From a virus: 41,541 bases of DNA. Shown one piece after another: positions 8,633 to 34,300 of this stretch (position 1 is the stretch's first letter; every line of letters begins with the position of its first letter). The position numbers and the translations under genes were made by a program. Location: positions 1-41,541 of IMG/VR virus record IMGVR_UViG_3300007611_000004; one strand, written 5' to 3'. The notes under the pieces are model-generated. The model made no database searches. It saw only the letters and a list, made by a program, of their open reading frames with translations, and had not been told where the DNA came from.

Positions 8633-11600
8633 ATGTCAAATTATGTCGGCCGAAATGCACAGGAAATATTCGATGATATTTCCTACAGATACTTTTATAG
8701 TCTTAGAAGAACAGACAAGGGCGAACTATTTCTTAATAAGATAGATCAGACCAAAAAAAATGACCCTTTAATAATAAACGATATTGGTACTAGTGAACAA
8801 GATTTTAAAAATTTTGTTTATGGAGAAGACTATTTCGAAGGCCGAGCAATAGATCATACAATAAGACACGAAAATCTCAGATATGAACAATATATATGGG
8901 ACAATAAAAATATATCATACTTTCTTGACAACGAAGGTAATTTTTCTGTAAGAGTAAACGAGTCATTCGATTATTCGAACACTGTTTCGTCGGACGGCGA
9001 AACACGATACACTATTGATGTACCGGCACAAGAGCCAGAGGCAGTTCCCGTGGTATCTCCGCCCGAAGAAGACGAAGATGAAGACGGTGAAGAAGCTGCG
9101 GAAGTCAACTATGAACTTACAGCAGTACAGAGTGTCGACGAGGGAGGCCAGTTAAATGTAGTTCTTACAACTGATAATTTAGGAACTCAAAATGGCATTG
9201 AATATTTTCTATCAGGAATAGATGCAGAAGATATTTCTGAAGTCAAAACAGAATTTACTGTAACAGTAGTAACAAACTCAGAGTCTCCTGGAAATCTTGT
9301 ATTTGCCTTAAACCAACAACAGTATCCATCAATAACATTATCGCGCGGACACACCTATATTTTTAATCAAGGCGATCCTAGTAATTTAGGTACAATACAT
9401 CCACTAGCCTTCAGTACCACTCAAGACGGCACACATAGCGACGGAGAAATTTATGAAAACGGCGTGGTTTATAAGCTAGACGGAGAGATAGTAGAAAACG
9501 CCGCCGCTTATGCTCAAAGGTTTGGAATCGCCTCTTCAAGATCAGTAGAAATAACAGTGCTGCCTGACACGCCTTTTGAGTTATACTATTTTGACTATAA
9601 TCATAGTAACGCAAATCCAACCGGACAAACACCTGTAACAGGAAATAATATACTAGACGGTGCTTTTAATGTATTTAATGACGTATCAACAATTGCAATT
9701 GCACTAGTTGCAGATGAAATTACAGAAGGCGCCGAGGAGTTAACAATTGAACTGAGCAACGGAGAAAGTTCTGTAACCACTTCTGTCAACGATACATCTA
9801 CAGCACCGGAAGCTAGCTATTCGCTTAGTGCAGACGTTGACGAAGTAGCAGAAGGAGAATTTATTACATTTACACTCACAACGGAAAATGTTCCTAATGG
9901 CGCTAATATCAATTATACTATTTCAGGCGTTACTGCTAACGATATAGAATCGCCACTTGAAGGTGTTTTTACTGTGAATGAAAATACAGCCACAGTAGAA
10001 ATAGCAATATCAAACGATGCTAGCACAGAAGGAGACGAAACATTAACTCTGTCTCTAAATAATAACGCAGATAGTGCTAGCATTACTGTGCTTGACACTA
10101 GTTTAGACCCCGAGCCAACCTATAATTTGAGCTCTACAAGCCAATCAATAAGTGAAGGAGATAATATATTTGTAACGTTAGAAACATCAAATATTGATGA
10201 TAATACATCTGTTTCCTATACAATTACAGGAATAGACGCAGCAGATCTTGCTACCGGAGACCTAACAGGCCAGTTTATTGTAACAAACAACACAGCTACA
10301 TTGGCATTCAGTTTAGCTCAAGATCAAACTACTGAAGGTCTTGAAACAATGGTTTTGACGCTGGACAACGAAGCTGCAAGTTTGTCTATCGATATTGAAG
10401 ATACGAGCATAGCCGCTGAGCCCGAGCCCGGCACATATGATCTAACAGCAAGTTCTTCATCACTAAATGAGGGAGAATCAGTAATTATTACGTTAGTTAC
10501 AACAAATGTAGATGATCAGACGGAAGTTCCATACACAATATCTGGCGTACAATTAGGTGACATTGACGCCGAAAGCCTGTCTAATAATTTTGTAGTCACT
10601 GATGACACTGCATCTGTCGAAATAGTAATTACAGAAGATAATTCTACCGAAGGACTCGAAACACTGACTCTAAGTTTAGACAACGGTGAATCATCAATAG
10701 ATATAGAAATCACAGATACAAGTGTTACACCTCAAGACAGCACCTATCAATTGACACCGTCTTCGTCTGTTGTAAATGAAGGAGAATCCTTATCAGTTTT
10801 ATTAGAAACTACTAATGTTCCAAATGGCACTGTTATTGGGTATACAATTTCGGGCATAACGAATGACGATCTCAGTGCCGGGTTAACGATAGGATCGTTT
10901 ACAGTTCAAAACAACGCAAGCAGCGTGGATTTAACTCTTGCAGCGGACGTAGAGACAGAAGGAGATGAAACCATGGTGTTTGCCTTAGACAACGGCGGGG
11001 CAAGTGCATCAATTCTAATAAACGATACTAGTCAAGCTCCTGAAGCTTCTTATTCCTTGTCTCGGAGCACAGCAACAGTAAATGAAGGTGATTCTGTTAC
11101 TTTCACCCTAAATACTACAAATGTTAATGACGGCGAACTTGTTGGCTATACAGTAACCGGAATCGACGCAGGTGATATATCTTCTGGGTCTCTTTCTGGC
11201 AACTTCGACATTAGTGCAGGAACATCACAAGTTAGTTTTACACTATCGGAAGATCTTCTCACGGAAGGCAGCGAAACAATGTTACTAAGCCTTGACAACG
11301 GCGAAGATTCTATATCTGTAACTGTAAGTGATACTAGTACGGCACCCTCGGCAGATTATACATTGAGTGTAACTAACGACGGATTCAGTAATTATGTATT
11401 AAACGGCAATGATGGTTCAGGATCAGTAAGCGGATCAGATGTCACATTAACATTTGCAACCGGTGATATCATAGATTTCAATGTTAACGCCCCGGGACAT
11501 CCGTTCTATGTTAAAACTGCAGATAGTACCGGAACTTCAAACCAAGCGGACGGTGTTACAAATAACGGTGCACAATCTGGCACTGTGAGATGGCAAATTC

Positions 11601-11680
11601 CTTCGCAGTATTCAGGGCAAACACTACACTACAATTGCCAATTCCATGCTGCAATGCATGGCACAATAAATGTAAATTAA
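8633..11680 (+). CDS. Calx-beta repeat virion protein with two cupredoxin-like domains
   Basis: A 1015-residue protein; AAGGA at 8621-8625 precedes ATG by seven bases. Residues ~1-150 are a distinct N-terminal region ending in an acidic linker (EEDEDEDGEEAAE). Six Calx-beta-like modules of ~100 residues follow, beginning near 158, 397, 496, 601, 704 and 806, with recurring EGE/EGD, TISG-IDA, TEGxETLTLSLDN and DTS signatures. The first module is interrupted (~208-336) by a cupredoxin-like domain with HPLAFS, whose copper ligands are altered (YYFDYNHSNA: Cys to Asp, Met to Ala). A second cupredoxin (~908-1015) closes the protein and keeps GHPFYVKT and NCQFHAAMHG, a full His/Cys/His/Met set. Calx-beta modules generally mediate adhesion. 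Copper binding is inferred from the ligand pattern. Confidence 0.85.
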   Translation: MSNYVGRNAQEIFDDISYRYFYSLRRTDKGELFLNKIDQTKKNDPLIINDIGTSEQDFKNFVYGEDYFEGRAIDHTIRHENLRYEQYIWDNKNISYFLDNEGNFSVRVNESFDYSNTVSSDGETRYTIDVPAQEPEAVPVVSPPEEDEDEDGEEAAEVNYELTAVQSVDEGGQLNVVLTTDNLGTQNGIEYFLSGIDAEDISEVKTEFTVTVVTNSESPGNLVFALNQQQYPSITLSRGHTYIFNQGDPSNLGTIHPLAFSTTQDGTHSDGEIYENGVVYKLDGEIVENAAAYAQRFGIASSRSVEITVLPDTPFELYYFDYNHSNANPTGQTPVTGNNILDGAFNVFNDVSTIAIALVADEITEGAEELTIELSNGESSVTTSVNDTSTAPEASYSLSADVDEVAEGEFITFTLTTENVPNGANINYTISGVTANDIESPLEGVFTVNENTATVEIAISNDASTEGDETLTLSLNNNADSASITVLDTSLDPEPTYNLSSTSQSISEGDNIFVTLETSNIDDNTSVSYTITGIDAADLATGDLTGQFIVTNNTATLAFSLAQDQTTEGLETMVLTLDNEAASLSIDIEDTSIAAEPEPGTYDLTASSSSLNEGESVIITLVTTNVDDQTEVPYTISGVQLGDIDAESLSNNFVVTDDTASVEIVITEDNSTEGLETLTLSLDNGESSIDIEITDTSVTPQDSTYQLTPSSSVVNEGESLSVLLETTNVPNGTVIGYTISGITNDDLSAGLTIGSFTVQNNASSVDLTLAADVETEGDETMVFALDNGGASASILINDTSQAPEASYSLSRSTATVNEGDSVTFTLNTTNVNDGELVGYTVTGIDAGDISSGSLSGNFDISAGTSQVSFTLSEDLLTEGSETMLLSLDNGEDSISVTVSDTSTAPSADYTLSVTNDGFSNYVLNGNDGSGSVSGSDVTLTFATGDIIDFNVNAPGHPFYVKTADSTGTSNQADGVTNNGAQSGTVRWQIPSQYSGQTLHYNCQFHAAMHGTINVN

Positions 11681-11690
11681 AGGATAGAAA

Positions 11691-14600
11691 ATGGTCGATT
11701 TTAAACTAGATAGATTAGCATATACATTCAAGGGAAATTGGGTTCCTAATTCTCTCTATCAAAAAGATGATATAATTTTCTATAAAGGAAAGGCATATGT
11801 GTGTTTGCAAGAGCATCTAGCTAATCTTAATTTCTACAACGACCTAGAGTTTTCGGGATCAGAAACTGTAAATGTTACTGTCGGACCCGATTCATTAAAC
11901 CCAAACAATGCTGCTGGCGTGTATTATTTTAATGATACCGAACTTGATAATCTCAATTTGATAAAGGGCAAGGCATATGTCTTTGATCAAACAGACAGTT
12001 CGAATGCTGATTTTAACGGGAATACCAATCCTCTACTGTTTTCTCTTAGCAATGAAGGGCCGCGTGCAGGAAACGAAAAATTTACACGAAACGTATTTTA
12101 TTTTATAGATGATTTACAGGTAGACGAAGATACCTATCTTGCCGATTTTGAGACAGCACAAAAAAGAAAAATACAGATTACTATTCCCTTTGATATGCCC
12201 GATAGATTTTACGTGTATAGCGACACAAATCAGAATGTAGGAACATTCCATAATTCTAGATATTTTTCTAATTGGGATCTAATGTTCGACGGCCGCGAGT
12301 GGAATAATGCCTGGACTGTTTCTATTTTTTACAGTAAAGGAGCAATAGTAAGATATAACGGTAATGTTTATATTTGTTTAGAACCTCACGTTAGCGCAGA
12401 AGATACCAATCTTGGTCTAGAAGAAGATCTAGAAAAATGGCAGTTATTGTCTCAGGTAGATACTTGGGCATCAAGCTGGATCGATGATAACAAATATACT
12501 TTGAATGATGTTGTTAGATACGGCGGCAGAGTGTATCGATGCACTCAGGGACATGTGTCTGCTAGTCAGGATCTCGGGCTCGAATCAGACGAAGACAAGT
12601 GGGAAATTTTAAGTGACGGGGTAGAATATAAATCTACATGGACTGCTAATACTCGGTATAAACCTAAAGATGTAGTTCGTTACGGGCCTAGCCTTTTTGT
12701 TTGTGTTCAAGGTCACACTTCTAGCGATGCAGCTAGTGAACTTCGCACTGATATAGATTTTTGGGAAATATATGTTCCTGGTTACTCATTTGACAATCAA
12801 TACGATTCAAACCTTGAATATTCGCAAGGCAATATAGTTCAATACGGTGGAAATTTATATCTCTGTAATCGACCAACTAGAGGAGGGTTATTGGCCAATG
12901 CAAGCACAGCTTGGCAGCAGCTTACAAGTGGGTATTATTACAAAGGAGATTATAGCCCAAGTGAGGCTTACAAGGTAGGTGAAATTGTACATTATTCTGG
13001 CTCGATCTGGGTTGCTCTAACGGGCACCGATGATACTCCTGAAGGAAGCCAAAATTGGAGGCTTGTAGCACCAGGAACAGAATTTAGAGGAAGATGGACT
13101 TTTGACTCCGACTATGAAGTAAACCAGATTGTAACTTTTATTGATTCAGCGTATGTGTGTATCTCAGCGCACAATTCGTCTATGGAGAACAGCAGACCAG
13201 ATAGAGATGAAAATATAAACCAATATTGGATCACTCTAGCCGAAGGTGCTGAAACAAATGTTCTTCAAGTAGAAGGAGACATGAAACAACGTGGGCTGTT
13301 ATACCAAGACGAGCGCTTCGAGATAGGAAAACCAAAGTCTGTGTTATCAGCTGTAGAAGACGAAAGGCAAACTGTTTTGTTTTCTGTAACTGTAGAACAA
13401 AATAAAGAAGACCCTTTTAATAATGTATTTGCTATTAACAGACAGCAATATCCAAGTTTTGATATAAAGCCTGATGTAATATATGTTTTTAATCAGGATG
13501 ACACAAGTAATGATAATCACCCTTTAAATTTTTCCGAAACACAGTACGGTATTCATAATTCTGGTGAGCCGTATGAATTAGGAGTCGTATATCGCTTAGA
13601 CGGAAATACTGTTGCAGATGCAGCAGAATATGCTGCAGAATTTAACAATGCCTCAACGAGAGAAATACAAATTACTCCTAGGCTCGAAACGCCTGATCAA
13701 TTATTTTATTACAGTTACAATCAAGATTCGTTGAATCCAACCGGAGTTGTTAATAAAGTAGAAAGTTCAAGGAAAAATACTTGGCAAATAGTTAGCAATA
13801 CACCAAGAGCATTTTACGTTAGCACAGACGGAGTAGATTCGCCTGATTATGGAAAATCTGAAGAATCCCCGTGGCGCACTGTGCATTACGCTGCTAATTA
13901 TCTTCTTGAAAACATATATGGCACACTCAATACATCCTCTGTCGGAGGTGATTATATATTGCAAAAGGCTATAGAGTATATTGCAAACGGTGACAGCACA
14001 GCAGATTTTTCAAATTTATCTACTTTGTTAAATTCTATTAATCCAAGAACAAAGGACCTGTTTGCTAATGTCGATAAGTCCGAATCGGAAATTACTTTAT
14101 CAGATAGTATAGCTGTTCAGTCTTTTTACGACGGCAACGAAATTCAAGGAGATATACGCAGCAGGATACAGGATATAGAAAACGAGATTTACTATTCCGG
14201 TGAAAAATATAAAAATGATCGTATTTACATAGGCGGTGTATATTATAATATTCTTAATCAAGAGGCTCCTAATACAACAATTTATGTTAAGACCGGAATT
14301 TTTAAAGAAATATTGCCTATATCGGTACCCGAGCGATGTGCTATCGTAGGAGAGGAACTAAGAAGCACGACAGTATCACCTGAGGAAGGTTATGAACAAA
14401 GCGACATGTTTTATGTTCGCAACGGATCAGGTATTAGAAGCATGACTATGTCGGGTCTTAGGGGCGAATTAGGAGAATTGAATCAATATCTTACGCGAAG
14501 ACCAACTGCAGGAGCTTACGTTAGCCTTGATCCCGGATTCGGTCCAGACGATTCTTCGGTATGGATCACAAGTAGATCACCCTATATCCAAAACGTAACT

Positions 14601-17396
14601 ACACTAGGAACTGGGTGTATTGGAGTTAAAATAGACGGATCTTTACACGATTCTGGTAATGATTCGATAGTTGCGAACGACTTCACTCAGGTATTATCGG
14701 ACGGCATAGGAGCCTGGGCCGATCAGGTAGGTCGTACAGAATTAGTATCAGTCTTTACCTATTATTGTCATATAGGCTACCTCTGTACCAACGGTGGTGT
14801 TGTGCGAGCTACTAACGGCAATAACTCTTACGGAGAATTTGGTTCAGTTGCTGAAGGATTCGATGTTAACGAAGTGCCTATTAACGGGTCTATAGATAAT
14901 AGAACAAAAGATGCACAGTTCGAGGAAGCATTTACATACGGCATCGATGAACAAAGTATTCTTGCAGTAGGATATTCTCATGCAGGCCAAGAATACACAG
15001 AAGCTGCAATTACTTTTGGCGGTTCTGGTACGGGAGCAGATGCTTACTACAACGAATTTAGACAACAGGCAATTTCTAAAATAAGAGTTTTAGATCCAGA
15101 AGATAGCTTCGACGCAGGCGGAATCAATTATACGTTTGTAGTGAATAATCTACAGTCAGGAAACGACGGGGAGATATTTTTATCACAAGCAGAAGTAGGA
15201 TCGAAAGAGCAATTTGAAGGTCAAAGGTTAGTTATCATCAGCGGACTGGGCGTAGGACAATATGGAAAAATTGAGTTTTACGATCCGGACACAAAGCAAT
15301 GTATCATTTCAAGAGAATCAGACACAAGCCAAGGTTTTGATCACTTCCAGCCTGGATATCCTATAGAACCTGAATTAGATTCAACTAGCAAGTATGCTAT
15401 TGAGCCAATGGTAGAGATAGAAGAACCAATATTTGACTCAGTAACAATATCCGGACCTTCTAATAGAAATTGGAAATATCTTGCCGCAAACGTTGACAGA
15501 ATAGTAGCAATTAGCCAAGGAAGCTCTTCTACAGACGCTTTTGTAACCTACAGTGACAACGGTTTTAATTGGTCGCAAGAAACCAGTGTTTCTGCAGCTA
15601 CAGAGATAAGTGGAATTGTATATTCAGGAACTGCATTTATTGCGATAAAACAAAGCAAAGAAGGACTAGCTACTAATGAAGTTCTTACTAGTTTAGAAGC
15701 AGTAAACTGGAGCGACATCACTCTTCCTACAGATGCTGCATGGCAATCAATTGCAAGCGATGGGAACAATAATGTAGTTATTGTTCCTGGAGGAGGCAAT
15801 CAATCATTTGCTTATTCTAGCGACGGCGGCTTGAGTTACAATCTAAGAGACGTAGGTACTACTCAAATTTGGTGTGCCGTAGAATACGGCAATGAAAAAT
15901 TTGTAGCTTTAGATAGTAATGCTGGAGACGTGGCTATAAGCACAGACAACGGAGTTACTTGGACATTAATATCTGGTGCAATTCCTGCATACCAATATAC
16001 CGACATAACCTACGGTAATGGTAGATTTGTTGCAATAGCACCACCGAGTAACACCGGCAGCACTTCTATATTTGTGTACAGTTTTGATGGTGAGAATTGG
16101 TACACTGGTATTCAAGAAACAGAAGATTTTGAATTTATATCATATTCTCAAGGAGTATTCATTGCTTCAGGTGAGAGTAATGTTATAGGAAAAAGTGCAG
16201 ACGGAAAAGTATGGAGAACAACCGGTGACGACAGCACCGATTTTGCTTTATCTCAGAGAGCTGTTTGGGGCCAAAGCTTGTATTATAATAATACCTGGCT
16301 AGTCGTTCAGGAAGGAGGTACATGGAATTCTATTAGAACAGGAGCCAGAGCAGTTGTGCGTGCTACTGTGGAAGCAGCTTCTGTGACCGGCTTTGTAATA
16401 TATGATCCGGGCAGTAATTATCAAACCAACCCTCAAATTACAGTATTTGACAACAGTGCATCCGGGTTAGTAGTATATAGTTCGTTTTTGAATAGCGGAG
16501 TGTTAGCGCAACCTGAAATGCGTAGTCGAGGAGAAGGTTACGTAACTGTTACCGGTACAATCACCGGAAATGGTTTTGCAGATTTATTTCAAACAGGAAC
16601 TACCTTGTTTTTGAAAGACGTTTCAAGAATCCCAGGTCCCGGAGCCAACTTATTAATAAACGCTGTATCCCAGCAGTTTAGTATAAGCAAAATCGAGGAA
16701 CAAACCGGCGACGGCCCTTATGATATTAAAGTACAGATACGTCCGTCGCTTTCCATAAACGAAAGTCCTATACATGATACTAGTCTAATTATAAGAGAAA
16801 GGTATAGTCAATTAAGACTCACTGGCCATGATTTTCTTGACATAGGCACTGGAAACTTTGAAGATACAGATTATCCCAATCTTTATGTATTTGGTGAAGA
16901 CGCAGAAAACCCTAGAAGACCTTTCAACGAAACAGTAGCAAGCGGCGGCGGCAGAGTATTCTATACTTCAACCGACCAGGATGGTAACTTCCGAGTTGGC
17001 GAATTGTTTGCTGTAGAACAGTCTTCTGGTATTGTTACTATAGATGCCAGCCAGTTTGATTTAAGCGGCCTTACTGAAGTTTCACTAGGCGGAATTCAAT
17101 TGGGCGGCACCAATGTAATTATAAGAGAATTTTCGAAAGATCCTACATTTGTTGCCTCTAGCAATAACGTAGTTCCTACGCAAAGAGCAATTGCTTCCTA
17201 TCTTGAAAATAGAATTTCTACTGGAGACGGAAATGCAACAACAAATACTCTTATTGCATCGCAGACTGTGATTAGTGGTGACAATATTTCTAACGCCGCA
17301 GGACTATCAGTAGAAGCAGCAAGTGTATTAAATATGCAAGGTCTTCAAGGAACCTATCTAGCTGCACAATTCTTTGCTTACGGAAGCAATTTGTAA
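11691..17396 (+). CDS. Giant beta-helix adhesin with CBM-like repeats and inserted Asp-box propeller
   Basis: A 1901-residue protein; AAAGGA overlaps the previous stop, six bases before ATG. Seven ~50-residue repeats of the CBM5/12-like pattern W-x(4)-Y-x(3)-D-x-V-x-Y-G-x(2)-Y-x-C begin near residues 13, 203, 259, 313, 367, 417 and 464. Two degenerate cupredoxin-like domains sit at ~59-193 (NPLLFS) and ~564-693 (NHPLNFS, then YYSYNQDSLNPTG). A pectate-lyase-like beta-helix follows from FYVSTDGVDSPDYGK (~705), including IYVKTGIFKEILPISVPERC. Residues ~1253-1550 hold Asp-box (BNR) motifs: YSDNGFNW, YSSDGGLSY, STDNGVTW, YSFDGENW, SADGKVW. The C-terminus has RLTGHDFLDIGTGNFE and GGGRVFYTSTDQDGNFRVGE. 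The next gene is a paralogue without the propeller. Propeller function is unknown; no sialidase arginine triad was established. Confidence 0.88.
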   Translation: MVDFKLDRLAYTFKGNWVPNSLYQKDDIIFYKGKAYVCLQEHLANLNFYNDLEFSGSETVNVTVGPDSLNPNNAAGVYYFNDTELDNLNLIKGKAYVFDQTDSSNADFNGNTNPLLFSLSNEGPRAGNEKFTRNVFYFIDDLQVDEDTYLADFETAQKRKIQITIPFDMPDRFYVYSDTNQNVGTFHNSRYFSNWDLMFDGREWNNAWTVSIFYSKGAIVRYNGNVYICLEPHVSAEDTNLGLEEDLEKWQLLSQVDTWASSWIDDNKYTLNDVVRYGGRVYRCTQGHVSASQDLGLESDEDKWEILSDGVEYKSTWTANTRYKPKDVVRYGPSLFVCVQGHTSSDAASELRTDIDFWEIYVPGYSFDNQYDSNLEYSQGNIVQYGGNLYLCNRPTRGGLLANASTAWQQLTSGYYYKGDYSPSEAYKVGEIVHYSGSIWVALTGTDDTPEGSQNWRLVAPGTEFRGRWTFDSDYEVNQIVTFIDSAYVCISAHNSSMENSRPDRDENINQYWITLAEGAETNVLQVEGDMKQRGLLYQDERFEIGKPKSVLSAVEDERQTVLFSVTVEQNKEDPFNNVFAINRQQYPSFDIKPDVIYVFNQDDTSNDNHPLNFSETQYGIHNSGEPYELGVVYRLDGNTVADAAEYAAEFNNASTREIQITPRLETPDQLFYYSYNQDSLNPTGVVNKVESSRKNTWQIVSNTPRAFYVSTDGVDSPDYGKSEESPWRTVHYAANYLLENIYGTLNTSSVGGDYILQKAIEYIANGDSTADFSNLSTLLNSINPRTKDLFANVDKSESEITLSDSIAVQSFYDGNEIQGDIRSRIQDIENEIYYSGEKYKNDRIYIGGVYYNILNQEAPNTTIYVKTGIFKEILPISVPERCAIVGEELRSTTVSPEEGYEQSDMFYVRNGSGIRSMTMSGLRGELGELNQYLTRRPTAGAYVSLDPGFGPDDSSVWITSRSPYIQNVTTLGTGCIGVKIDGSLHDSGNDSIVANDFTQVLSDGIGAWADQVGRTELVSVFTYYCHIGYLCTNGGVVRATNGNNSYGEFGSVAEGFDVNEVPINGSIDNRTKDAQFEEAFTYGIDEQSILAVGYSHAGQEYTEAAITFGGSGTGADAYYNEFRQQAISKIRVLDPEDSFDAGGINYTFVVNNLQSGNDGEIFLSQAEVGSKEQFEGQRLVIISGLGVGQYGKIEFYDPDTKQCIISRESDTSQGFDHFQPGYPIEPELDSTSKYAIEPMVEIEEPIFDSVTISGPSNRNWKYLAANVDRIVAISQGSSSTDAFVTYSDNGFNWSQETSVSAATEISGIVYSGTAFIAIKQSKEGLATNEVLTSLEAVNWSDITLPTDAAWQSIASDGNNNVVIVPGGGNQSFAYSSDGGLSYNLRDVGTTQIWCAVEYGNEKFVALDSNAGDVAISTDNGVTWTLISGAIPAYQYTDITYGNGRFVAIAPPSNTGSTSIFVYSFDGENWYTGIQETEDFEFISYSQGVFIASGESNVIGKSADGKVWRTTGDDSTDFALSQRAVWGQSLYYNNTWLVVQEGGTWNSIRTGARAVVRATVEAASVTGFVIYDPGSNYQTNPQITVFDNSASGLVVYSSFLNSGVLAQPEMRSRGEGYVTVTGTITGNGFADLFQTGTTLFLKDVSRIPGPGANLLINAVSQQFSISKIEEQTGDGPYDIKVQIRPSLSINESPIHDTSLIIRERYSQLRLTGHDFLDIGTGNFEDTDYPNLYVFGEDAENPRRPFNETVASGGGRVFYTSTDQDGNFRVGELFAVEQSSGIVTIDASQFDLSGLTEVSLGGIQLGGTNVIIREFSKDPTFVASSNNVVPTQRAIASYLENRISTGDGNATTNTLIASQTVISGDNISNAAGLSVEAASVLNMQGLQGTYLAAQFFAYGSNL

Positions 17397-22863: not shown

Positions 22864-25701
22864 ATGGCAAGAAACATAAGTAGCAAGACACAAACTAGAG
22901 CAGTTATTTCGGAAAATTTATCCGATGTATTTTCTGCAGTGTATACAAATAATTCAGGTGAAGGCGCTGAATTGGTGTCGGTTAATGTAAATGGAACAGG
23001 CGATAGCACAGAAATTATTGAAGACACGGGCGCAAGCGAGTGGACATATTTTGGATCTAATCAAATACCTGTTAATGCAGACGCTAGTACGACGTCAACC
23101 GGTTACGGCATTCCTTATCCGGTAAAACTTGATAGTGATCGAGTGTTAATATTCTTTTTACCTCATTATCAGCATTTTCAAGGAGATAACAGCGACTTTT
23201 TGAATGGAGAGGTAATTCATACTCAAATACTAGAATACGAGTCTGGTCGGTTTAGAGCAGGTCCTATCAATCACCACAGCCTGCCTACCCAGGTGTTTGA
23301 TAACACCAGTTATAGTCTTTGGTCAGAACCAAACAGTATTAGTGGCAGCTACAGCCAGCCAAACTGGCGTGCAATATCAATCAGTCCTACTAAAGTCGTT
23401 GCAGCATACAGACAGGGAACAGACTTTCAGATACTAAGGTTTACAATTACAGGCAACACAGTTAATACTGTTATAGAAACACTAGATATCACAGGAGCCT
23501 CGTATTTTTCAAGTACAACTGCACGAGCATTTGATCTAGCAAAGGTTCCCGACGCGCCTGACCAGGTAATAGTAGGCGGCTGGGCTGACACAAATTGGAG
23601 TTTACAGGCCTTTAGTATACCAGACGACGGCGCGCTTACGAACTTAACTTCGTTAACTAGCACAGGTATATCCAATAGTTCTTATCATTTCAGCTTGTCC
23701 GAGATGGTCAATAGTGCAACCAGTAACATTACTCCCTATATTATTGCTGCATCGACGGACTCAAACAGTGCTCAAGCAGTCATATTTAATTATGACAGTG
23801 CTAATTACAGTCTTTCTGTGGCTGGAACCGCAGTTGCTTTAAACGATTCGAGTGGTAGCTGGGCGGGCATACAATGTGAATGTACCTCTTCTGATACAAC
23901 TCCTAGTGCAGTAATTACCACAATTGGCACTAGTAATACAGACACAATGACATTTTATCCGCAAAATAATGCTAGCACTGCATTTAACAGTCCTACAGTA
24001 AATTTGACTCTGCAGCATACAAGCGGTAAAAGTATTCAAGAAAGCTATAGATGGGGCGACGAAAGAGCAGTTTTTGCAGGAGACGGGCAACTACTAGTAG
24101 TGTTTGATTCTAGCGGCTCGGCTACAAATCTACATCCTGAGAATGAAACAACAGAAACAGAAAGAGTACAACAGCAATTCTACCCATTCGATAGCAAGCC
24201 AATATACAATCAGTATGATCAAGCCGCTCAAGAGAGAGACAGGGTTCCTCAGTACTATTCAAGGAAAGATGTTGACACAGCAACAGATGTTGGTACGAGA
24301 GATGACACCGGAACATATCTTCCGATGTGTTTTGATAGAGGCATGTGTTATGCTTGGAATGAAAATGCACATTGTTGGATAGTAGGCTATCACGGTAGAC
24401 TTTATGCGCTAGACAGTGATGGAGCTATCTTAAGTGAAAAGAAACTTTATGATATGTACTATAACTTAAACTGGGAACATAGAGTAGGTGACTTAAATTG
24501 TACGCCTAGCGGTAGAATACTGTTTCACACACTCTACAGAGTCGGCTCTTATCCTAATAGCACATACAGAGTTAATCGAAGATGGGATAGTATGAGCGCC
24601 GGTAACGGGTACCTAATGGTTAGTGATAAATTGCACAGCGGCGAGCAGCTAGGCCAGATACAGCCGGATCATCCAGACAATAATTTTGAAAGATTCGACA
24701 ATGTTGTTTTCACATGTAACCTTACTACATTTGTTGATTATAATGGAAACGAAAGAGCGTTTTGTTTCGGTGTAGGCGGGAACAGTGTGAATGGATACGT
24801 AGCTAGGTGGACAGAAGGAGAAAGATTCGATTACTTTAGCGGCACTAATATTAACACTGCAGACGGATCCAACGACTGGTTTAGAGGTTATCATCCTAAT
24901 ATGAAGCTTATTCAAAATCAGCCTGTGAGTCGAGCATTCCCTTCAGGAACTTGGAGGCTAGTAGGAAGCTATCAATGGGACTCACGTGGTGATACTAGAA
25001 GGCTAGGAATATCTAACCCTCAATCAGAAAACAATTTCGGAAGTTTGGATCCTGATAATGCGCAAATTACAGACGAACAAAATGACAGTGGATTTGGAAT
25101 AAGTCTTTTTAAATATACCAGTGGTTCAAAAAGTAGCATAACTGTAGCAACGGCTTTTGATACAGAGATTAACAGAAATCGAGTTTGGAGTTCTATAAAC
25201 GGCAGTCTTAATTTTGCTTTTGGCTGGACCCCAGAAAGAACTACATCAGGAAATGCATTCTGTCAAGTAGCTGTTACAAAGTTTGGTTACGCAGTTGCCA
25301 TGCAGAAAGGTGTGCCAGTAGATGCATCATCACCTGTGTACATTTTTGATAACTCTGACATTGATAGTCCATATCAAGAGCTAAATACCAACACTGGAAA
25401 CGGCTGGGTCACTCTTCACGCTATTGACAAAAACCGATATAGAGTATTTGGTGAAAACATAGATAAAATTTACAGTGCTGGAGGTATACCCGACGAAGTT
25501 AAACTTTATATGCGACTGTATGATAACAGTCTAACCTATTTTAGTATAATTAACGGGCAAGATCTAGAACTAGTAAGACCAGACAATTCGCTCTATAAAT
25601 CTGCGGAAACTTATCATATACCTCCGGGGTATAGCTTAGAAGCAAGGTCAGATACGCCTCATACCATAACAACAATGTTAACAATCAAGGAATACATCTA
25701 A
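22864..25701 (+). CDS. Large virion protein, possible propeller within an Ig-like frame
   Basis: A 945-residue protein with AAGGA at 22852-22856, seven bases before ATG. I do not recognise a named family. The centre (~80-830) is rich in aromatic beta-strand repeats (for example PNWRAISISPTKVVAAYRQG, VIVGGWADTNWSLQAF, HCWIVGYHGRLYALDSDGA), suggesting a beta-propeller. The two ends look like halves of the small Ig-like domain of the 7020 gene: an N-terminal VFSAVYTNNS...AELVSVNVNG and a C-terminal LTYFSIINGQDLELVRPDNS...YSLEARSDTPHTITTMLT, comparable with YYIKEIVVPANSSLRPVDNG...SIAVSSDTESSIDAILS. About nine cysteines occur in the centre, more than in its neighbours. A receptor-binding or fibre role is inferred from position. 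Confidence 0.75.
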   Translation: MARNISSKTQTRAVISENLSDVFSAVYTNNSGEGAELVSVNVNGTGDSTEIIEDTGASEWTYFGSNQIPVNADASTTSTGYGIPYPVKLDSDRVLIFFLPHYQHFQGDNSDFLNGEVIHTQILEYESGRFRAGPINHHSLPTQVFDNTSYSLWSEPNSISGSYSQPNWRAISISPTKVVAAYRQGTDFQILRFTITGNTVNTVIETLDITGASYFSSTTARAFDLAKVPDAPDQVIVGGWADTNWSLQAFSIPDDGALTNLTSLTSTGISNSSYHFSLSEMVNSATSNITPYIIAASTDSNSAQAVIFNYDSANYSLSVAGTAVALNDSSGSWAGIQCECTSSDTTPSAVITTIGTSNTDTMTFYPQNNASTAFNSPTVNLTLQHTSGKSIQESYRWGDERAVFAGDGQLLVVFDSSGSATNLHPENETTETERVQQQFYPFDSKPIYNQYDQAAQERDRVPQYYSRKDVDTATDVGTRDDTGTYLPMCFDRGMCYAWNENAHCWIVGYHGRLYALDSDGAILSEKKLYDMYYNLNWEHRVGDLNCTPSGRILFHTLYRVGSYPNSTYRVNRRWDSMSAGNGYLMVSDKLHSGEQLGQIQPDHPDNNFERFDNVVFTCNLTTFVDYNGNERAFCFGVGGNSVNGYVARWTEGERFDYFSGTNINTADGSNDWFRGYHPNMKLIQNQPVSRAFPSGTWRLVGSYQWDSRGDTRRLGISNPQSENNFGSLDPDNAQITDEQNDSGFGISLFKYTSGSKSSITVATAFDTEINRNRVWSSINGSLNFAFGWTPERTTSGNAFCQVAVTKFGYAVAMQKGVPVDASSPVYIFDNSDIDSPYQELNTNTGNGWVTLHAIDKNRYRVFGENIDKIYSAGGIPDEVKLYMRLYDNSLTYFSIINGQDLELVRPDNSLYKSAETYHIPPGYSLEARSDTPHTITTMLTIKEYI

Positions 25702-25710
25702 GGAGACAAA

Positions 25711-26610
25711 ATGCCATACGTAAAAAGCATAAGACAAAATCATAGGCTCCCTCAATCTGAAAATTCCGTAGACAACTACTATGATATTCAAGGCGGTGAT
25801 CTAGTATATGACATGGGAGGTTATAGAGTCCACTGTTTCCTACAAACCGGAGCTCACGATTTTAACATTAAGCCTAAATTCGATCAACCAGATTTGATGC
25901 ATTTAGCTCCTCCTGTAGATGTAGAATACATGGTAATTGCCGGCGGCGGCGGCGGCGGTTCCGGCGGCGGATATTTTGGCCAAGGCGGTGGCGGCGGCGC
26001 TGGCGGATATAGAACAGGAACTCAGTCTGGCCTAACAGCAGGGAACTATTATGTGTATACCGGCCGAGGCGGGGACGGAGGAAATGATACAAGGGGATCT
26101 AGAGGTGGGAGCAGCACCTTTCGCAACATTGACTCATATGGCGGCGGCGGAGGTGGCCATCGATATAATGACGGGCAGTACGGCGGCTCCGGAGGCGGCG
26201 GCGGCCTAGAAGATTACAATGAATACAACGGTGGCGGCTCTACATCATATGGAAATAACGGCGGCAGCGCATATGCAAACAGATATAATTCACGTGCTGG
26301 CGGCGGCGGCGGCGCCGGCGGTAGTGGTGGCCGATATAATATGAGAGGCGGTTACGGAGCTTCAAACAATATAACCGGCAGTAACGTTTCTAGGGCCGGC
26401 GGCGGCGGAGGTGGCGGCGCCTCGTATATTGGCGACGGAGGTCCAGGACCGGCCGGTGGCGGCGACGGCGGACGATACGCCGCCGGCAGTGGAGCAAATA
26501 ACAACTACGGCTCCGGCGGCGGTGGCGGCGGTAATTATGACTATAATAATGACAATGCTCGCGGCGGCCACGGAATAGTTGTTGTGCGATATAAAACTCA
26601 AGGTCAATAA
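25711..26610 (+). CDS. Glycine-rich phage adhesin
   Basis: A 299-residue protein; AAGGAG (25700-25705) overlaps the previous stop and lies five bases before ATG. Residues ~1-70 contain GGYRVHCFLQTGAHDF, the lead-in commonly seen before polyglycine adhesins. From VEYMVIAGGGGGG to GGHGIVVVRYKTQG it follows the widespread phage glycine-rich pattern: short GGGGG blocks separated by loops such as AGGYRTGTQSG, TAGNYYVYTG and NITGSNVSRAGG. Related glycine-rich tips in T-even phages (gp38 of T2/S16) pack polyglycine II helices and contact receptors through the loops. The DNA is locally GC-rich, with GGC triplet runs unlike the A+T-rich neighbours. A receptor-binding tip is likely. Confidence 0.85.
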   Translation: MPYVKSIRQNHRLPQSENSVDNYYDIQGGDLVYDMGGYRVHCFLQTGAHDFNIKPKFDQPDLMHLAPPVDVEYMVIAGGGGGGSGGGYFGQGGGGGAGGYRTGTQSGLTAGNYYVYTGRGGDGGNDTRGSRGGSSTFRNIDSYGGGGGGHRYNDGQYGGSGGGGGLEDYNEYNGGGSTSYGNNGGSAYANRYNSRAGGGGGAGGSGGRYNMRGGYGASNNITGSNVSRAGGGGGGGASYIGDGGPGPAGGGDGGRYAAGSGANNNYGSGGGGGGNYDYNNDNARGGHGIVVVRYKTQGQ

Positions 26611-27296: not shown

Positions 27297-27692
27297 ATGC
27301 CGCAATTTAGAACCACTACAGATATTTTTACAAATTTAGAGCGTAACGAAATTTACGACGATCCTGTATATGATCCTGAAAAAACTCCTATTCCTTGGTT
27401 TAAGGAATGGGATTACAAGAGAGAGCTGAGGTTAGAAGACGTAGACATTTGGGAAGTGATTTCAGAAGCATCGGGAGGCGCAGGTTTATATGCAAGTCAT
27501 TTGCCCTACGCAGAATTCTACCTGTTAACAACTGGTCTTGACTCTGCAGTTGAATATAGAAAACCTTTTTTTGAAACTTTTTATGGGGCAAAAGCACAGT
27601 ACAAAGCAGCAAAAGCAGCTACAGATATTGGCTTAAAGATTTCATTTTCTAACGTATGGATTCCACCTGAAGAGGCATGGCTCTACTCATAG
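27297..27692 (+). CDS. Conserved small protein, paralogue of the 29718 gene
   Basis: A 131-residue protein whose start is two bases after the preceding stop. The function is not recognised. It shares an ordered set of motifs with the 118-residue product at 29718: EWDYKRELRLEDVDIWEVIS versus DWDYTVTPEISDVKFWEVIY, then LYASHLPYAEFYLL versus IFAAECPLIEFYLI, then ETFYGAKAQ versus EVFFGASAT and a final IG. It is soluble, with no signal peptide or membrane segment. The last 10 bases overlap the convergent oxygenase gene. Together the two copies bracket the oxygenase cassette. Confidence 0.75.
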   Translation: MPQFRTTTDIFTNLERNEIYDDPVYDPEKTPIPWFKEWDYKRELRLEDVDIWEVISEASGGAGLYASHLPYAEFYLLTTGLDSAVEYRKPFFETFYGAKAQYKAAKAATDIGLKISFSNVWIPPEEAWLYS

Positions 27693-28207
27693 GGAAAATA
27701 GTTAAAGTTTAAAACTAGTCTATACCTGCTGTTAGAACTTGTAGAACCTCTGTGCTTAAGATTAGAGTCAAAAATTATCATTCTATTCTCAACGCTTTCA
27801 ATTTTCTCTCCGTTTTCAAATTCAGTGTAACCGTTGTTTGTATTTAGGTAAAACACTGCAGTTTTGCCCATAAAGTTGTCATGATCTACATGGAAGGGAA
27901 AATCAATTACTTTGGGTGTGCAGAATGTGATATTTGCTTTGATTCTAACCAATGCACAAGGATTTATAACTTCTAATAACGGATTCAATACTTCTATATG
28001 AGGACTATTAGGGGCATTGTCTACATAGAACATATGCACAAATTGAAAATCAAATAGTTCTTTATTTGGTCCCATGTCGCCGTAATCTTCACCAACTTTG
28101 CTTTCACCATAAAACCAAGGAAAGTGTGGATTCATTATCTCATTGCGTAAATCTTTAAATGCATCGTTAGAAAGATAATTGTCGAAAACCTGTATTTTGT
28201 AAGTCAT
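27683..28207 (-). CDS. 2-oxoglutarate/Fe(II)-dependent oxygenase
   Basis: A 174-residue protein with AAGGAC upstream of ATG. It has the double-stranded beta-helix signature of the 2OG-Fe(II) oxygenase superfamily: HxD at H106/D108 (FPFHVDHDN), a distal histidine H152 (SNLKHRGSTS), and the 2OG-binding arginine in RYRLVLNFNY (R161/R163). These enzymes decarboxylate 2-oxoglutarate while hydroxylating a substrate; the substrate here is unknown. Its length and distal KHRG resemble marine-phage hydroxylases. It is the last gene of a three-gene minus-strand operon, and its 3' end overlaps the plus-strand gene by 10 bases. Confidence 0.85.
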   Translation of the reverse strand: MTYKIQVFDNYLSNDAFKDLRNEIMNPHFPWFYGESKVGEDYGDMGPNKELFDFQFVHMFYVDNAPNSPHIEVLNPLLEVINPCALVRIKANITFCTPKVIDFPFHVDHDNFMGKTAVFYLNTNNGYTEFENGEKIESVENRMIIFDSNLKHRGSTSSNSRYRLVLNFNYFPYE

Positions 28208-28229
28208 TTATTATATGTCCTTGTGTTGC

Positions 28230-29012
28230 CTATCCAAAAGGGCATTTTTGCTCTTTATTTTGTTTAATTTTTTCTTTTATTTTTTTCTTTTCTTTATATG
28301 TTTTTATGACTTCCTTAGGAGATCGCCCTAGTAGATTAATCATATGTTCTTCTGGTACTAGAGCCCTTATATCGTCTTTAGATACCAGATGATTTTTAAT
28401 CTCAATTTTTTTGTCTGTTAAAGGGTGCATTATTACTAGAGGTTCAAGAGGTTCAAAATTTACCACTGTCTCGCAATCCTTTTCGTATTTTAGAAAATAG
28501 TTGATGTTTACTTCTGATTGGTAATGAAAAAACATGATTCCTGGCATCAGTGTACAATTAGGCTTCGGAGACTGCAGAAAATTATACTCAGGATAAGTCC
28601 AGGTAAATTGTATATCTTCTTCTATTCTAAATCTCCACGGAGACAGTATTTTAAAATTTAAATAATCCGACTCCGCAATTACAGGATATTGTTCCGGGAC
28701 GTGAGACGCATCAAACTTGTCGTCTATATAACTTTGAGTGTAAGAAAAGGTTCTGTTATACGGATCATTAGCAGCATGTATGATCAACTCTGCTTGAAAA
28801 TAACTAGGTATTACAATGCCATTTTTGTAATACTCTTGAATTGCTTTACAATTTTTAATTGTAGTGTTCTCGCCGTTAACTTTGGGAGTATTACGCCACC
28901 ATTCGGGAAAAAATTGATTACCTTTTTGGATAGGAGCATTTTCATACACCATTTTATCAGCGGTATAACAGTGCAGAGTTAATGTATTTTTTTTCTTCTT
29001 AAATAAATTCAT
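28230..29012 (-). CDS. Conserved phage protein of unknown function
   Basis: A 260-residue protein. I chose the ATG at 29012 (MNLFKKKK) because it overlaps the upstream stop as ATGA, the usual coupling arrangement; the in-frame GTG at 29027 lies inside the upstream gene. Visible features are a basic start, QFFPEWWRNTP (~residues 33-43), IVIPSYFQAELII (~66-78), and a lysine/glutamate-rich tail (KEKKKIKEKIKQNKEQK) likely to be a charged helix. The PEWWRNTP plus later IP-S-F arrangement recalls a marine T4-like phage family of unknown function; this is recollection, not a search. Its position between two oxygenases suggests a shared job or substrate. Confidence 0.75.
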   Translation of the reverse strand: MNLFKKKKNTLTLHCYTADKMVYENAPIQKGNQFFPEWWRNTPKVNGENTTIKNCKAIQEYYKNGIVIPSYFQAELIIHAANDPYNRTFSYTQSYIDDKFDASHVPEQYPVIAESDYLNFKILSPWRFRIEEDIQFTWTYPEYNFLQSPKPNCTLMPGIMFFHYQSEVNINYFLKYEKDCETVVNFEPLEPLVIMHPLTDKKIEIKNHLVSKDDIRALVPEEHMINLLGRSPKEVIKTYKEKKKIKEKIKQNKEQKCPFG

Positions 29013-29638
29013 ACAGCGTGGAACCAAGTAACTAAAGCATATTTTGTACCACTTTGAACAGGTAATGCTTCATGAGTATATGCAAAGCTGGAAGGGAACA
29101 TAACCATTGTTCCCGCCTGCGGCGTAATTCTAACACCATGAAAAGGAAAATCTAGTTCCCCTCCTTCGAAAGTATCGTTGAGATAAATTAATACAGAAAT
29201 TGCTCGTGTAGGACAAGAAGTATGCCAGTCGCTGTGCTTGACATATCTTTGTCCTTGTTCGTATTTGAGAGCCTGAAACCCTTCAGAATCAAGTGTCATG
29301 TCAGTCTGAAAAAAATCTTCCACGTAACTTGTTAAGCCAGATTCTGTTGATAATTTGCATTGATTATGAAGGCCCTGAAACGGAGGAAAATCCATTTCAG
29401 ATGCAACTCTCGAAATAGGACATACAGAATTTGATCTCTTAGTTACATCTGTACCAGTTTGAAGAATTCGTGACTGCTCCCATTGCGCAGGAGATTCAGC
29501 GTCAGCGCATGAATCCTCTAAAACTGCTACTGCCTGGTCCGGTGCAGGGAAAGCATTTCGAAACACACTAATGCAGCCTGCGTAATTTTCAGCAGGTTCA
29601 AGTCTTCCAGCATATATGCCGTCAACAGTTATAGCCAT
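29009..29638 (-). CDS. Prolyl-4-hydroxylase-type 2OG/Fe(II) oxygenase
   Basis: A 209-residue protein with GAGGAGA six bases before ATG. The C-terminal half is a P4Hc/PKHD-type domain: HxD at H135/D137 (YVKHSDWH), the segment ISVLIYLNDTFEGGELDF, distal H189 (FAYTHEALPV), and K199 in GTKYALVTWFH as the likely 2-oxoglutarate-binding lysine. All expected catalytic positions are present. The N-terminal half (residues 1-105) has CISVFRNAF and is the usual helical lead-in. It is the first gene of the three-gene cassette and is coupled to the next by an ATGA overlap. The substrate is unknown; a virion or host protein is conceivable. Confidence 0.88.
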   Translation of the reverse strand: MAITVDGIYAGRLEPAENYAGCISVFRNAFPAPDQAVAVLEDSCADAESPAQWEQSRILQTGTDVTKRSNSVCPISRVASEMDFPPFQGLHNQCKLSTESGLTSYVEDFFQTDMTLDSEGFQALKYEQGQRYVKHSDWHTSCPTRAISVLIYLNDTFEGGELDFPFHGVRITPQAGTMVMFPSSFAYTHEALPVQSGTKYALVTWFHAV

Positions 29639-30260: not shown

Positions 30261-30264
30261 GGAT

Positions 30265-30278
30265 TATTTATATAAATA
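30265..30278. promoter_or_regulatory. Palindromic bidirectional late promoter
   Basis: TATTTATATAAATA is a perfect 14-base palindrome containing TATAAATA on both strands (plus 30271-30278, minus 30272-30265). The plus box fits the gene at 30301, leaving a leader of about 17 bases. The minus box lies directly against the GTG of the 67-residue gene. Confidence 0.65.
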
Positions 30279-30300
30279 CAATATAATTGTAGAGTATATC

Positions 30301-30687: not shown

Positions 30688-30699
30688 CAGGATTATATA

Positions 30700-31374
30700 A
30701 TGAAACCAGTTTCCGAAACTAAATTTGTATCAAAGACAGGTTTTACCAGCCCAGGATTTGAAGTAGACGAATCGGGAAATATTGAAATTAAAGGATCAGT
30801 TTCTTTCAGCGGAGAGCTAGTTACGGCTAATCCTCTTTCGTTAAATGAAGTTGCTCTGTTTGAAGATGGCAAACTAGCCTCGTCTATTACTGATAGCAGT
30901 CTTACTAGTGTCGGCGAGTTGAATTCACTTTCAGTAGATGGCGATACCTCGATCACTGGCAATGTTTCCATAAACGGTGACGTTCAAGCAAGTGGTCTTG
31001 TTATATCGGACACTTCAACGTTTAATAATGATGTTGCCATTCAAGGTGATACATCTATCAATGGCGACTTGGTGCAATCTACGGGCATCCTTATGCTTTC
31101 TAGTTTGTCTAAAGGAAGCATAGATAACATAGATCTAGGAAGCACTTCCCCAGGTAGTGGTGACTTTACTGCTCTAACTGTTACTGAATCTACAGACATA
31201 AATCCTATAATTACCGGAAACTTAGATAATATAAATATAGGAGCTAGAATAAGAGCTTCGGCCAGTTTCAGCGATATAGACATATTAGACAAACCAACCG
31301 AGCCTACAGCAGGCGCGAATAAAAATTATGTAGATAATACTGCTGCTGCTTTATCAATTGCCCTAGGGTCATAA
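30700..31374 (+). CDS. Short fibre-like structural protein
   Basis: A 224-residue protein with CAGGA seven bases before ATG. The middle is a repetitive beta stalk (SVDGDTSITGNVSINGDVQ, VAIQGDTSINGDL), followed by the frequent phage-fibre motif SIDNIDLGSTSPGSGDFTAL (~145-165). The C-terminus, PTEPTAGANKNYVDNTAAAL, matches the tail-fibre ending often written PTxPxxAANKxYVD. It resembles a reduced version of the stalk region of the proteins at 1 and 2810. It sits 11 bases upstream of the giant structural gene and may be its partner in a fibre or baseplate appendage. Confidence 0.78.
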   Translation: MKPVSETKFVSKTGFTSPGFEVDESGNIEIKGSVSFSGELVTANPLSLNEVALFEDGKLASSITDSSLTSVGELNSLSVDGDTSITGNVSINGDVQASGLVISDTSTFNNDVAIQGDTSINGDLVQSTGILMLSSLSKGSIDNIDLGSTSPGSGDFTALTVTESTDINPIITGNLDNINIGARIRASASFSDIDILDKPTEPTAGANKNYVDNTAAALSIALGS

Positions 31375-31385
31375 CGGAGATTTAA

Positions 31386-34300
31386 ATGGCAAAGACACAA
31401 ATTCAAGAATACGTATTCAAGCCTGGCATTGGCCTAAACGACAATTTATATCCTAATGCATACGATATGATTAGCAGTAATCTGTTGTTTATCGAAGCCG
31501 AGGCAACCGAATTCTTAGAGGCGCAAGCACTGAACGAAGTGCCTGGTTACATCGATTACAACTATTTGCCAAACGATGCTACTAGCATAGAAAATATTCT
31601 TAATGCTTTTATCTTTGATCTTAGGTATGGTGGCAACGCTAAAACAGTTGATGTTATTAGATTTTTCTATGAAAAAGACGTGTTTCAAATGCCGGGAGGA
31701 ACAACGGCTGTAAGCGGAATGATAGAATTTATAGGCAATCTCATTACTGAAAATATATTATCTAACCAAAATTTTGCAGCACGCAGTACGGAAACTCAAA
31801 CCATATTAGATGTGGACGCCGAGGAAGATGCATTTGAGAAAGTTGAAAGTTTAATAACTTTGACAAGAAATGTAATAGATACTGGTTTAGATGCTATTGC
31901 GGAAACGTCGACAGGTGCCGGCCATGTAAAAATCCAAGGAAGATATAATCTAGCTGATATACTGCTTGTTACGAATGTTAACACAAACACTATTTTGTAT
32001 AACTTTGGCGACCCTGACCTTGGTGGTGATATTGAATTAAATATAGGCGATCAAGATCCTGATTTCCCCACCTATTTACAGACTACAGATACCGTAACAA
32101 CTCTAAAGTTTAACACAAACACACTCGATCAGAACGAATCTGACGGATTACAGATCTTTGTTGAAAACTCGGAAAACGCACAAAGCATTACTACGGTAAG
32201 ACCATTTGATTTTGGAACTGATGCTATCGAAAGAATGAGGGTAGCAACTCCATATTCAATGCTAGACGCTGACTTCGAGTACGGACTGCAGCCTACAAAA
32301 TGGGCAGCGATTGGTGTCCAGCGAGGATACCCTTCTCTGTATGAAATACCAGGCACAGATACTCCTGTATCTACTGTTACAACTGATGCTAGTTTTGGTA
32401 ATACAACAGAGGACTTTTCATACGAATTAACGAATAATGGTAGTTCAGACTGGATAGTTTCTGGAGCAGACAGAAGCGGCAGTATAATAAACGAGCAAGA
32501 TCCAGGATTTTTGGTACGTGAAGGCGATAGACTAGAATTTACAAACAATGCAAGCAGCACACATCCTTTATATTTAAAAACTGTTTCAGAAGCAGGAACT
32601 AATAATCTTATCGAAGGAGTAGACGGCCAAGGAGCTTTTGGAGGCGATACTGTAACCTGGCAAACCACTCTCGGAGATTCAGGTACCTACTATTACACAT
32701 GTGCAAACCATTCGAATATGATAGGTGTTATAACGGTAGAAGCTGCTGATAGCAACACTGGTGTGGGCCAGAGTGAAATTACTGTAAATACTGTTACGCC
32801 TCATGGAGTAACAGCGGGGGAGCCTATCACGATAAAAGCACTTGAAGACGGAGTTGTAGGTGCAGCACGCGCTGAAGGAGCATTTGTTGTCACAGAAACT
32901 CCGGACGAAAACACATTGAGATATTTTGCAAAAGCAAAAGTAGGTTCAGCTCCTGGTGATATTTTGTCCACTACGTACACTCAATTGAGGAGAGCAGGTT
33001 TTTACACCGGTGCAAGTATAGGAACTCCTTCTTTTGAGCTAATTAGCAACGGTAGCGAAGGAACAATTACCACAGAACTAGAAGTAGCAAGTGAATCCAC
33101 AATTATTCCCTATGATGGAATAAACCCCCCAGTGGGGTCTCCAATTGTTGGAAATGCAAGTATTGGTCAAAATACACAGGTGACTGGTGTTATTCAAACA
33201 TCGGCCGGGGGTGGAACTTATATTACAGTTGAAATCGACGGAGACTACACTACAGGAGAAACACTAGTAACTTTGGTAGATGCCTCTGGAGTAGTTCCAA
33301 ATCTTGCTTTCGACTCAGGCAACGGAGTAGCTACTTTTGTACAGTCGATTAACGGTAATAATATTATTTTGTCGGATCCTCTAAATGCGCCTTTACTAGG
33401 AACAACCAATACCTATACAAATATATCTGGGACTAACGATAATACCAGCGGTTCTGGAGCTAATTTTGATGTAACAGTTGGTTCGGGCGTATACGAGATA
33501 GCCTCTATCAATAATGGAGGAGTTGCATACAAAGCAGGGGACCGACTTCTAGTTTCTGGTACTAACCTAGGGGGTGGTTCGCCGGAGCACGATTTAGTAA
33601 TGGTTGTCGAAATTGTAGACGATACAGGGTCTATTCAAGCAACATCGCAGGAAGGCACGCCTTTTGATGGAACCGAAACTGTGTCTAATATTTCTCCGCA
33701 AGACGAAGTAATCGGTTCAGGGGTGCCTTTGTTTGACGTTTCTTACACAGACAATGTCTATTCTGTATCAGTGTCAGCCAGCGATGCTTCTCAAGATTAT
33801 GCACCTGCCGATAGATTGTTGATTACAGGAACAGATGCTAATGGACAAACTCCGGACAACGATGTTATTGTTACCGTTAGCACTGTAGATGCGTCGGGTA
33901 AAATTACAGGAGTCACAAGTGAAGGTACGGCTCCTGATGCAGCTTTAGAATTCGCAGATGTGCCTTATCAAGGAGGCACAGGCACTGCTGCTACGTTTAC
34001 TGTGCGAACTTTAGGCGAAATCTATGCATTAGAAATAACAGCGCCAGGCACAGGATACGTTATAGGAGATAATATAACGGTTATTGGCAGCGACATCGGA
34101 GGGTCTTCGCCTGAGAACGACCTTACAGTAACAATAGATAACGTAGACGGGGCCGGTGGAATAACCGAATATATTATATCAGGTACTGCCAATAATTCGG
34201 ATAGTGTCAATGATATTACAGCTACTAATGTTTTAGGTTCAGGATTAGAGGTAACAGTAAGCCTTGACGCAGGCGCATACACTCTTAACAGTGTTGATCA

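Follow-up and report, generated by a model that had tools for sequence, protein, structure and literature searches.

The window analysed here is a single IMG/VR virus record (IMGVR_UViG_3300007611_000004, 41,541 bases), in which four open reading frames (ORFs) on the plus strand carry six cupredoxin-like domains, here numbered D1 to D6. The ORF at 8633–11680 encodes 1015 residues and contains D1, Calx-beta-like repeats and, at its very C-terminus, D2. The two ORFs that follow encode tail-fibre-like proteins with CBM_5_12-type repeats: the 1901-residue product of 11691–17396 (phrog_9851, E 5e-141) bears D3 and D4, and the 1681-residue product of 17430–22475 (phrog_9851, E 9e-195) bears D5. D6 lies within the 2033-residue product of 31386–37487, which matches a virion structural protein family (phrog_5838, E 4e-252). 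A preliminary description of this DNA, made from the sequence alone, had referred to all four as virion proteins. Judged by PHROG matches, that label is good for the 17430, 11691 and 31386 proteins and weaker for the 8633 protein, because the PHROG matches of the latter arise mainly via shared repeats and the cupredoxin domain itself.

All six domains were found in these four ORFs within a few bases of where they had been placed previously, and the three for which a full His/Cys/His/Met set had been proposed do contain it. In D2 (11354–11677) the predicted ligands are H956 (codon at 11498–11500), C1002 (11636–11638), H1005 (11645–11647) and M1008 (11654–11656). The corresponding residues of D5 (18360–18743) are H356 (18495–18497), C421 (18690–18692), H424 (18699–18701) and M427 (18708–18710), and those of D6 (32394–32741) are H393 (32562–32564), C439 (32700–32702), H442 (32709–32711) and M445 (32718–32720). 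The sequence pattern of a type 1 copper site, H...C-x(n)-H-x(n)-M with an axial Met or Gln, is present in these three domains and absent from the other three. D1 (9254–9640) reads H-D-H-A, having kept H256 and H324 and exchanged Cys for D321 and Met for A327, exactly the loss described beforehand. D4 (13380–13769) reads H-S-Q-L; the Cys to Ser (S675) and His to Gln (Q678) changes noted earlier are there, with the first His (H610) retained, and the Met is also changed (L681). The loss in D3 (11865–12269) had been given as first His to Asn, which is wrong, as all four positions are altered (N113, then S, N and V). A stricter pattern, HP-x(38-75)-C-x2-H-x2-M, occurs once in each of the three proteins with an intact domain and is absent from all 2000 composition shuffles of the four proteins. 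A chance origin of the ligand pattern was ruled out by these shuffles together with the family alignment.

The preliminary description treated the domains as being of one type, but they fall into two subfamilies. Type A, of approximately 130 residues, comprises D1, D3, D4 and D5, which are mutually alignable. Type B, of approximately 110 residues, comprises D2 and D6, which align with each other. Profile comparison indicates that types A and B are homologous (hhalign probability 99.2%, E 5.7e-20). Within the type-A tree D1 and D4 are sister domains (SH-aLRT 96) and may share one single loss of the Cys.

AlphaFold2 models of D5 and D6 were built on alignments of window and IMG/VR sequences and reached a pLDDT of 97.6 and 95.8, respectively. 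In a Foldseek search of the PDB with D5, all 10 matches at E ≤ 0.001 were to rusticyanin, AcoP or three-domain copper nitrite reductase, antibody domains appearing only below that set. The list obtained with D6 was topped by rusticyanins, nitrite reductases, plastocyanins, a Nitrosopumilus purple cupredoxin, amicyanin and multicopper oxidases. The best structural match to both models is the N-terminal cupredoxin of the three-domain nitrite reductase of Hyphomicrobium (2dv6, 6tfo), although that domain belongs to an enzyme and has only around 20% identity to the phage domains. Superposition on the N-terminal domain of 2dv6 with VIA-align gave Z 11.1 and rmsd 2.0 over 95 residues for D6, and Z 9.2 and rmsd 2.5 over 98 residues for D5. 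Both models are thus predicted Greek-key beta-sandwiches like those of solved cupredoxins.

For type B, profile membership points the same way as the predicted folds, which agrees with the cupredoxin identity proposed initially. When D6 is searched as a single domain it scores 23.3 bits against PF00127 (Copper-bind), above the curated cut-off of 21.2; the whole 2033-residue protein scores 18.3, under the cut-off. PF00127 was matched at E ≤ 0.1 by 21 of 41 type-B members. Against solved structures the type-B profile matched nitrite reductase (1.4e-6), plastocyanin (2.1e-6), amicyanin (6e-5) and rusticyanin (1e-3), and the ligand residues line up in the alignments examined. The domains share with PF00127, which includes plastocyanin, azurin and amicyanin, the predicted fold, the His/Cys/His/Met set and the order of the ligands. 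However, members of that family are free small electron carriers, whereas the phage domains are modules inside long structural proteins.

Conservation of the four predicted ligands extends well beyond the window. When 41 diverse type-B domains are aligned, no columns are invariant except H57, C103, H106 and M109 (D6 domain numbering), against a mean column identity of 36%. After viral copies were reduced to 70% identity, all four ligands were present in 80 of 85 type-B copies, and each of the remaining five lacked at least two. For type A the His/Cys/His/Met set was found in 45 of 69 viral copies, while seven more have Gln in place of Met with the Cys and both His kept (L010, L022, L023, L046, L064, L133 and L161, for example CHFHTGQGN), giving 52 of 69 complete sets; again, each of the other 17 lacks at least two ligands. 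Most of the sequences used to train the profiles were intact, and these figures may therefore miss some badly decayed copies. The seed patterns of three scans contained no ligand residue, those of a fourth held the first His (GHPF) and those of a fifth also the Cys. Conservation of the Cys/His/Met among viral copies was therefore not selected for by the scans. Conservation of the first His in type B is partly conditioned by the scan patterns, as are all cellular counts, including the 40 of 42 non-redundant cellular type-B domains that are complete, for which the patterns included part of the motif. Both synonymous forms of the His and Cys codons are in use at the ligand positions, so the conservation is not merely a matter of recent copying.

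Loss of the site is nearly all-or-none. In type A the Cys and His are coupled with a phi of 0.88, ranking 6th of 2579 column pairs, and 52 complete sets were observed where 29.7 would be expected under independent loss. At least 8 changes at the Cys are required on the type-A tree. Supported branches provide only 4 independent pairs with and without Cys, and on average the second His goes with the Cys in 3.9 of these 4 (p 0.125); this phylogenetic test agrees with the coupling, but contains too few pairs to be significant alone. A recent loss can be seen in one sister pair, L118 being complete and L119 having lost Cys, His and Met. Broken copies mostly retain the fold-defining residues. It had been argued that retention in some domains of this virus and decay in others implied selection for metal binding. 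Taken from the window alone the argument is weak, given that D1 and D4 possibly represent one Cys loss, but the family-wide counts and the coupled losses support its conclusion, and the ligand set is under selection as a unit.

The intact proteins are sparing in their use of cysteine. The 1015-residue 8633 protein has one cysteine, the D2 ligand, and the 2033-residue 31386 protein likewise has one, the D6 ligand. With a single Cys per domain in D2, D5 and D6, an intradomain disulphide role for the ligand Cys was ruled out in all three. Of the 106 ORFs (IMG/VR and window) that carry an intact domain and encode 400 residues or more, 30 have no Cys outside the domains. An intermolecular disulphide through the ligand Cys could still form, yet this would leave the joint conservation of both His and the Met unexplained.

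Several features mark the domain as a mobile module. In SXBG_00214, the homologue of the 31386 protein in cyanophage S-CAM1, the flanks are alignable on both sides of D6 while D6 itself is missing, and D6 can therefore be regarded as a clean insertion of approximately 120 residues. D1 is nested in the first Calx-beta-like repeat of the 8633 protein (9131–9860), a domain within a domain, and the Calx-beta match picks up at profile position 65 directly after D1. Many cyanophages carry a type-B domain in a gp9/gp10-like ‘baseplate wedge tail fibre connector’, of which it forms the C-terminal part in syn9. A type-B query matched 354 of 50,697 phage records, all from phages of aquatic bacteria (Synechococcus, Prochlorococcus, Pelagibacter, uncultured marine hosts or a lake actinobacterium), and a type-A query added Methylophilales phages. 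No phages of enteric bacteria, pseudomonads or other well-sampled hosts were recovered from the 50,697 records at the cut-offs used. The H...C-x2-H-x2-M arrangement is kept in all 17 sequenced phages inspected, which include myoviruses and podoviruses.

Cellular relatives were found in marine Bacteroidota, Rhodobiaceae, OCS116, PS1, Myxococcota and others, often as the final domain of a lipoprotein-like secreted protein or as a type A plus type B tandem. The tandem form, in OCS116, PS1 and Rhodobiaceae, is a protein of approximately 430 residues with an RTX-like start followed by one cupredoxin of each type (loci L278, L279, L281, L282, L287, L291, L292, L295, L296, L298, L300, L301, L302 and L308). 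Lipoprotein-like secreted proteins with a terminal type-B cupredoxin come from Bacteroidota, Myxococcota and others (L275, L283, L286, L290, L303, L305, L316, L325, L328, L330 and L332). The nearest relative of D6 in the tree is the domain of one of these, L283. Virus and cell labels switch at least 5 times on supported branches, from which we infer that the module has moved between viruses and cells.

The explanation we favour, with a probability of about 0.78, is that these are modular cupredoxins, beta-sandwiches inserted into tail and baseplate proteins, and that the intact copies D2, D5 and D6 would each bind a single metal ion, copper being the likeliest, at a type 1 site formed by His/Cys/His/Met with the short C-x2-H-x2-M loop. 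That the intact domains bind a metal at this site is very probable, judging from ligand conservation and the modelled fold. As to what the metal might do, the tail protein would fold without metal inside the host, whose reducing cytoplasm prevents disulphide formation, and would take up metal at cell lysis or in the surrounding water. The bound metal would then lock the loops at one end of the sandwich, producing a rigid and durable host-contact surface, so that a metal-locked module could be for an extracellular tail protein what a disulphide is for a secreted protein. Site-less copies would persist as plain structural spacers. This last, stabilising role in host contact is tentative, and we rate it slightly below even odds.

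Several observations weigh against this explanation. By sequence, type A has no confident copper-protein relative among solved structures, whether 4 or 39 sequences were used; PF00127 is matched weakly by only 3 of 39 type-A members, and the type-A domains of the window do not reach its cut-off, D5 having no Pfam match at all at E ≤ 0.1. The case for type A as a cupredoxin is therefore built on the modelled fold together with its homology to type B. Roughly one in four type-A copies has lost the site while retaining the fold, so the module as such can do without it. Also, the cytoplasm contains very little free copper, which implies either late loading or another metal in the site.

The last point bears on the possibility that the site is real and its natural metal is zinc, nickel or iron, acquired from the host cytoplasm during assembly and only stabilising the fold. 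Conservation of the ligands as a unit indicates metal binding and leaves the identity of the metal unspecified, and iron is held by His-x-His motifs in other phage tail fibres (T4 gp37, PMC11705849). However, His/Cys/His/Met with a recurrent exchange of Met for Gln is the pattern of type 1 copper, and the leading structural relatives are copper proteins, which makes a non-copper metal unlikely. A somewhat less unlikely alternative is redox-active copper, which would transfer electrons or carry out oxidations at the host surface, or sense redox state. Electron-transfer cupredoxins and enzyme domains provide the nearest folds, and the ligands match an electron-transfer site, but neither a partner redox protein nor a second copper centre was seen among PHROG matches in the window, and ligand-free copies are tolerated in the same proteins. 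The loaded domain might instead act as bait for a receptor through which the host takes up copper, by analogy with the iron-based Trojan Horse proposed for phage tails, itself a published hypothesis (PMC11705849). The exclusively aquatic hosts of the 354 type-B phages and the position of D2 at the extreme C-terminus of its protein would suit such a role; the occurrence of the domain at inner protein positions, and in secreted bacterial proteins that infect nothing, would not, and we consider it rather improbable.

It is more doubtful still that the domains are metal-free scaffolds in which the ligand residues persist through packing or recent descent. Ligand-free copies do retain the fold-defining residues, and this virus itself has three broken domains, D1, D3 and D4. 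Yet no positions are better conserved than the four ligands in a family whose column identity is otherwise near 36%, their losses are coupled and recurrent, and the mixture of synonymous codons speaks against recent descent. Least credible is an origin of the domains by capture of the host plastocyanin gene (petE), which cyanophages do carry (PMC3037559). D6 matches the NCBIfam plastocyanin model at E 1.1e-6, but with 29 bits against the cut-off of 87.85 for that equivalog (TIGR02656), and alignments to plastocyanins require a two-residue insertion in the ligand loop. In addition, the domains sit in long structural proteins and are most closely related to uncharacterised domains of viruses and of secreted bacterial proteins. 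A petE origin was rejected on the score and the ligand loop.

Known blue copper proteins act as electron carriers or as enzyme domains. The likeness to amicyanin noted in the preliminary description is accurate as far as spacing is concerned: amicyanin is liganded by His53, Cys92, His95 and Met98 (PMC12723479), and the interval Cys92/His95/Met98 equals the C-x2-H-x2-M of the phage domains. The short loop and an upstream His are thus common to the domains and to the amicyanin of Paracoccus. However, amicyanin is a soluble partner of methylamine dehydrogenase, unlike the phage modules, and the similarity is weak, the best chain reaching E 6e-5 with the type-B profile; D6 scores 19.2 bits against the amicyanin equivalog TIGR02657, below its cut-off of 110.2. 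Since the copper nitrite reductase domain has the same C-x2-H-x2-M loop, the resemblance does not indicate descent from amicyanin. The axial ligand is Met in plastocyanin and azurin and Gln in stellacyanin (PMC11881046), and the stellacyanin-type Gln, seen in the seven viral type-A copies listed above, does not occur in the window's own copies.

The nearest known concept among phage proteins is the iron-binding HxH motif of tail fibres, reported for T4 gp37 and phage R22Y (PMC11705849), which is likewise a case of metal held by side chains in a phage tail protein, although the metal ligands and the kind of protein differ from those of the cupredoxin modules. Ig-like decoration domains such as T4 Hoc are also beta-sandwich modules added to virion proteins (PMC10385173), but they are of another fold family and lack a metal site. 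The phage petE plastocyanin (PMC3037559) is a free metabolic protein and not part of a tail. A search of the open-access literature, with subscription papers and preprints outside its range, gave no paper describing a cupredoxin in a phage tail or virion. The domain itself belongs to a known type, but a complete and selected type 1 site in virion proteins appears to be undescribed in the open-access literature. If the prediction is right, the virion would be a copper-bearing metalloprotein assembly, with a class of virion cofactor not described before.

A site conserved in the tails of cyanophages, pelagiphages and other aquatic phages predicts a bound transition metal on very numerous marine particles and adds a possible ligand for the scarce trace metals of seawater. 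Whether aquatic phages commonly build type 1 copper sites into the tail or baseplate, with copper needed for contact, infection or survival, we regard as evenly balanced. The site offers a simple handle (colour, electron paramagnetic resonance (EPR), inductively coupled plasma mass spectrometry (ICP-MS)) on tail proteins of uncertain function, and with it the proposal that metals help phage tails to reach their hosts could be put to a concrete test. Phages already isolated would be suitable, namely syn9, P-SSM2, S-RIM2, P-RSM6 and HTVC028P, and virion proteomics of S-SM1, S-PM2 and syn9 exists (PMC3037559).

The genes surrounding the domain-bearing ORFs are, from their annotations, of a contractile-tailed phage type. 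PHROG matches to baseplate wedge proteins are located at 34–2670 and 2810–7015, and a match to tail sheath or sheath stabiliser lies on the minus strand at 38296–39765. The closest sequenced relatives of the 38296–39765 protein are in jumbo phages, such as Pseudomonas phage PA5oct and Sinorhizobium phage Phosso (35–37% identity), while the 31386 protein has its nearest relatives in cyanophages, such as S-CAM1. This record probably covers only part of a larger viral genome. Within 37845–41267 a NUDIX hydrolase gene adjoins the tail sheath stabiliser and a virion structural gene, and its neighbours match those annotated in PA5oct-like Pseudomonas jumbo phages.

Among the tail genes, the ORF at 22864–25701 encodes 945 residues without a PHROG match at E 0.001, and that at 25711–26610, between fibre-region genes, encodes a very glycine-rich protein of 299 residues (GGGGSGG stretches) with a match to phrog_2295. 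The minus-strand genes at 27683–28207 and 29009–29638 have PHROG matches in common (2OG-Fe(II) oxygenase-linked domain, ‘endonuclease V’), names that may mislead; the shared matches suggest that a small domain has been duplicated. The CBM_5_12-type repeats at 11691–13290 and 17430–18930 contain a recurrent C-x3-H motif (YVCLQEH, YICLEPH, YRCTQGH, YICVNGH), which could be a packing feature or a further metal site. Finally, a D6 domain 100% identical to that of the window is present at 4001–4357 of another IMG/VR contig (L085), and therefore the virus of the window, or a close relative of it, has been sampled elsewhere.

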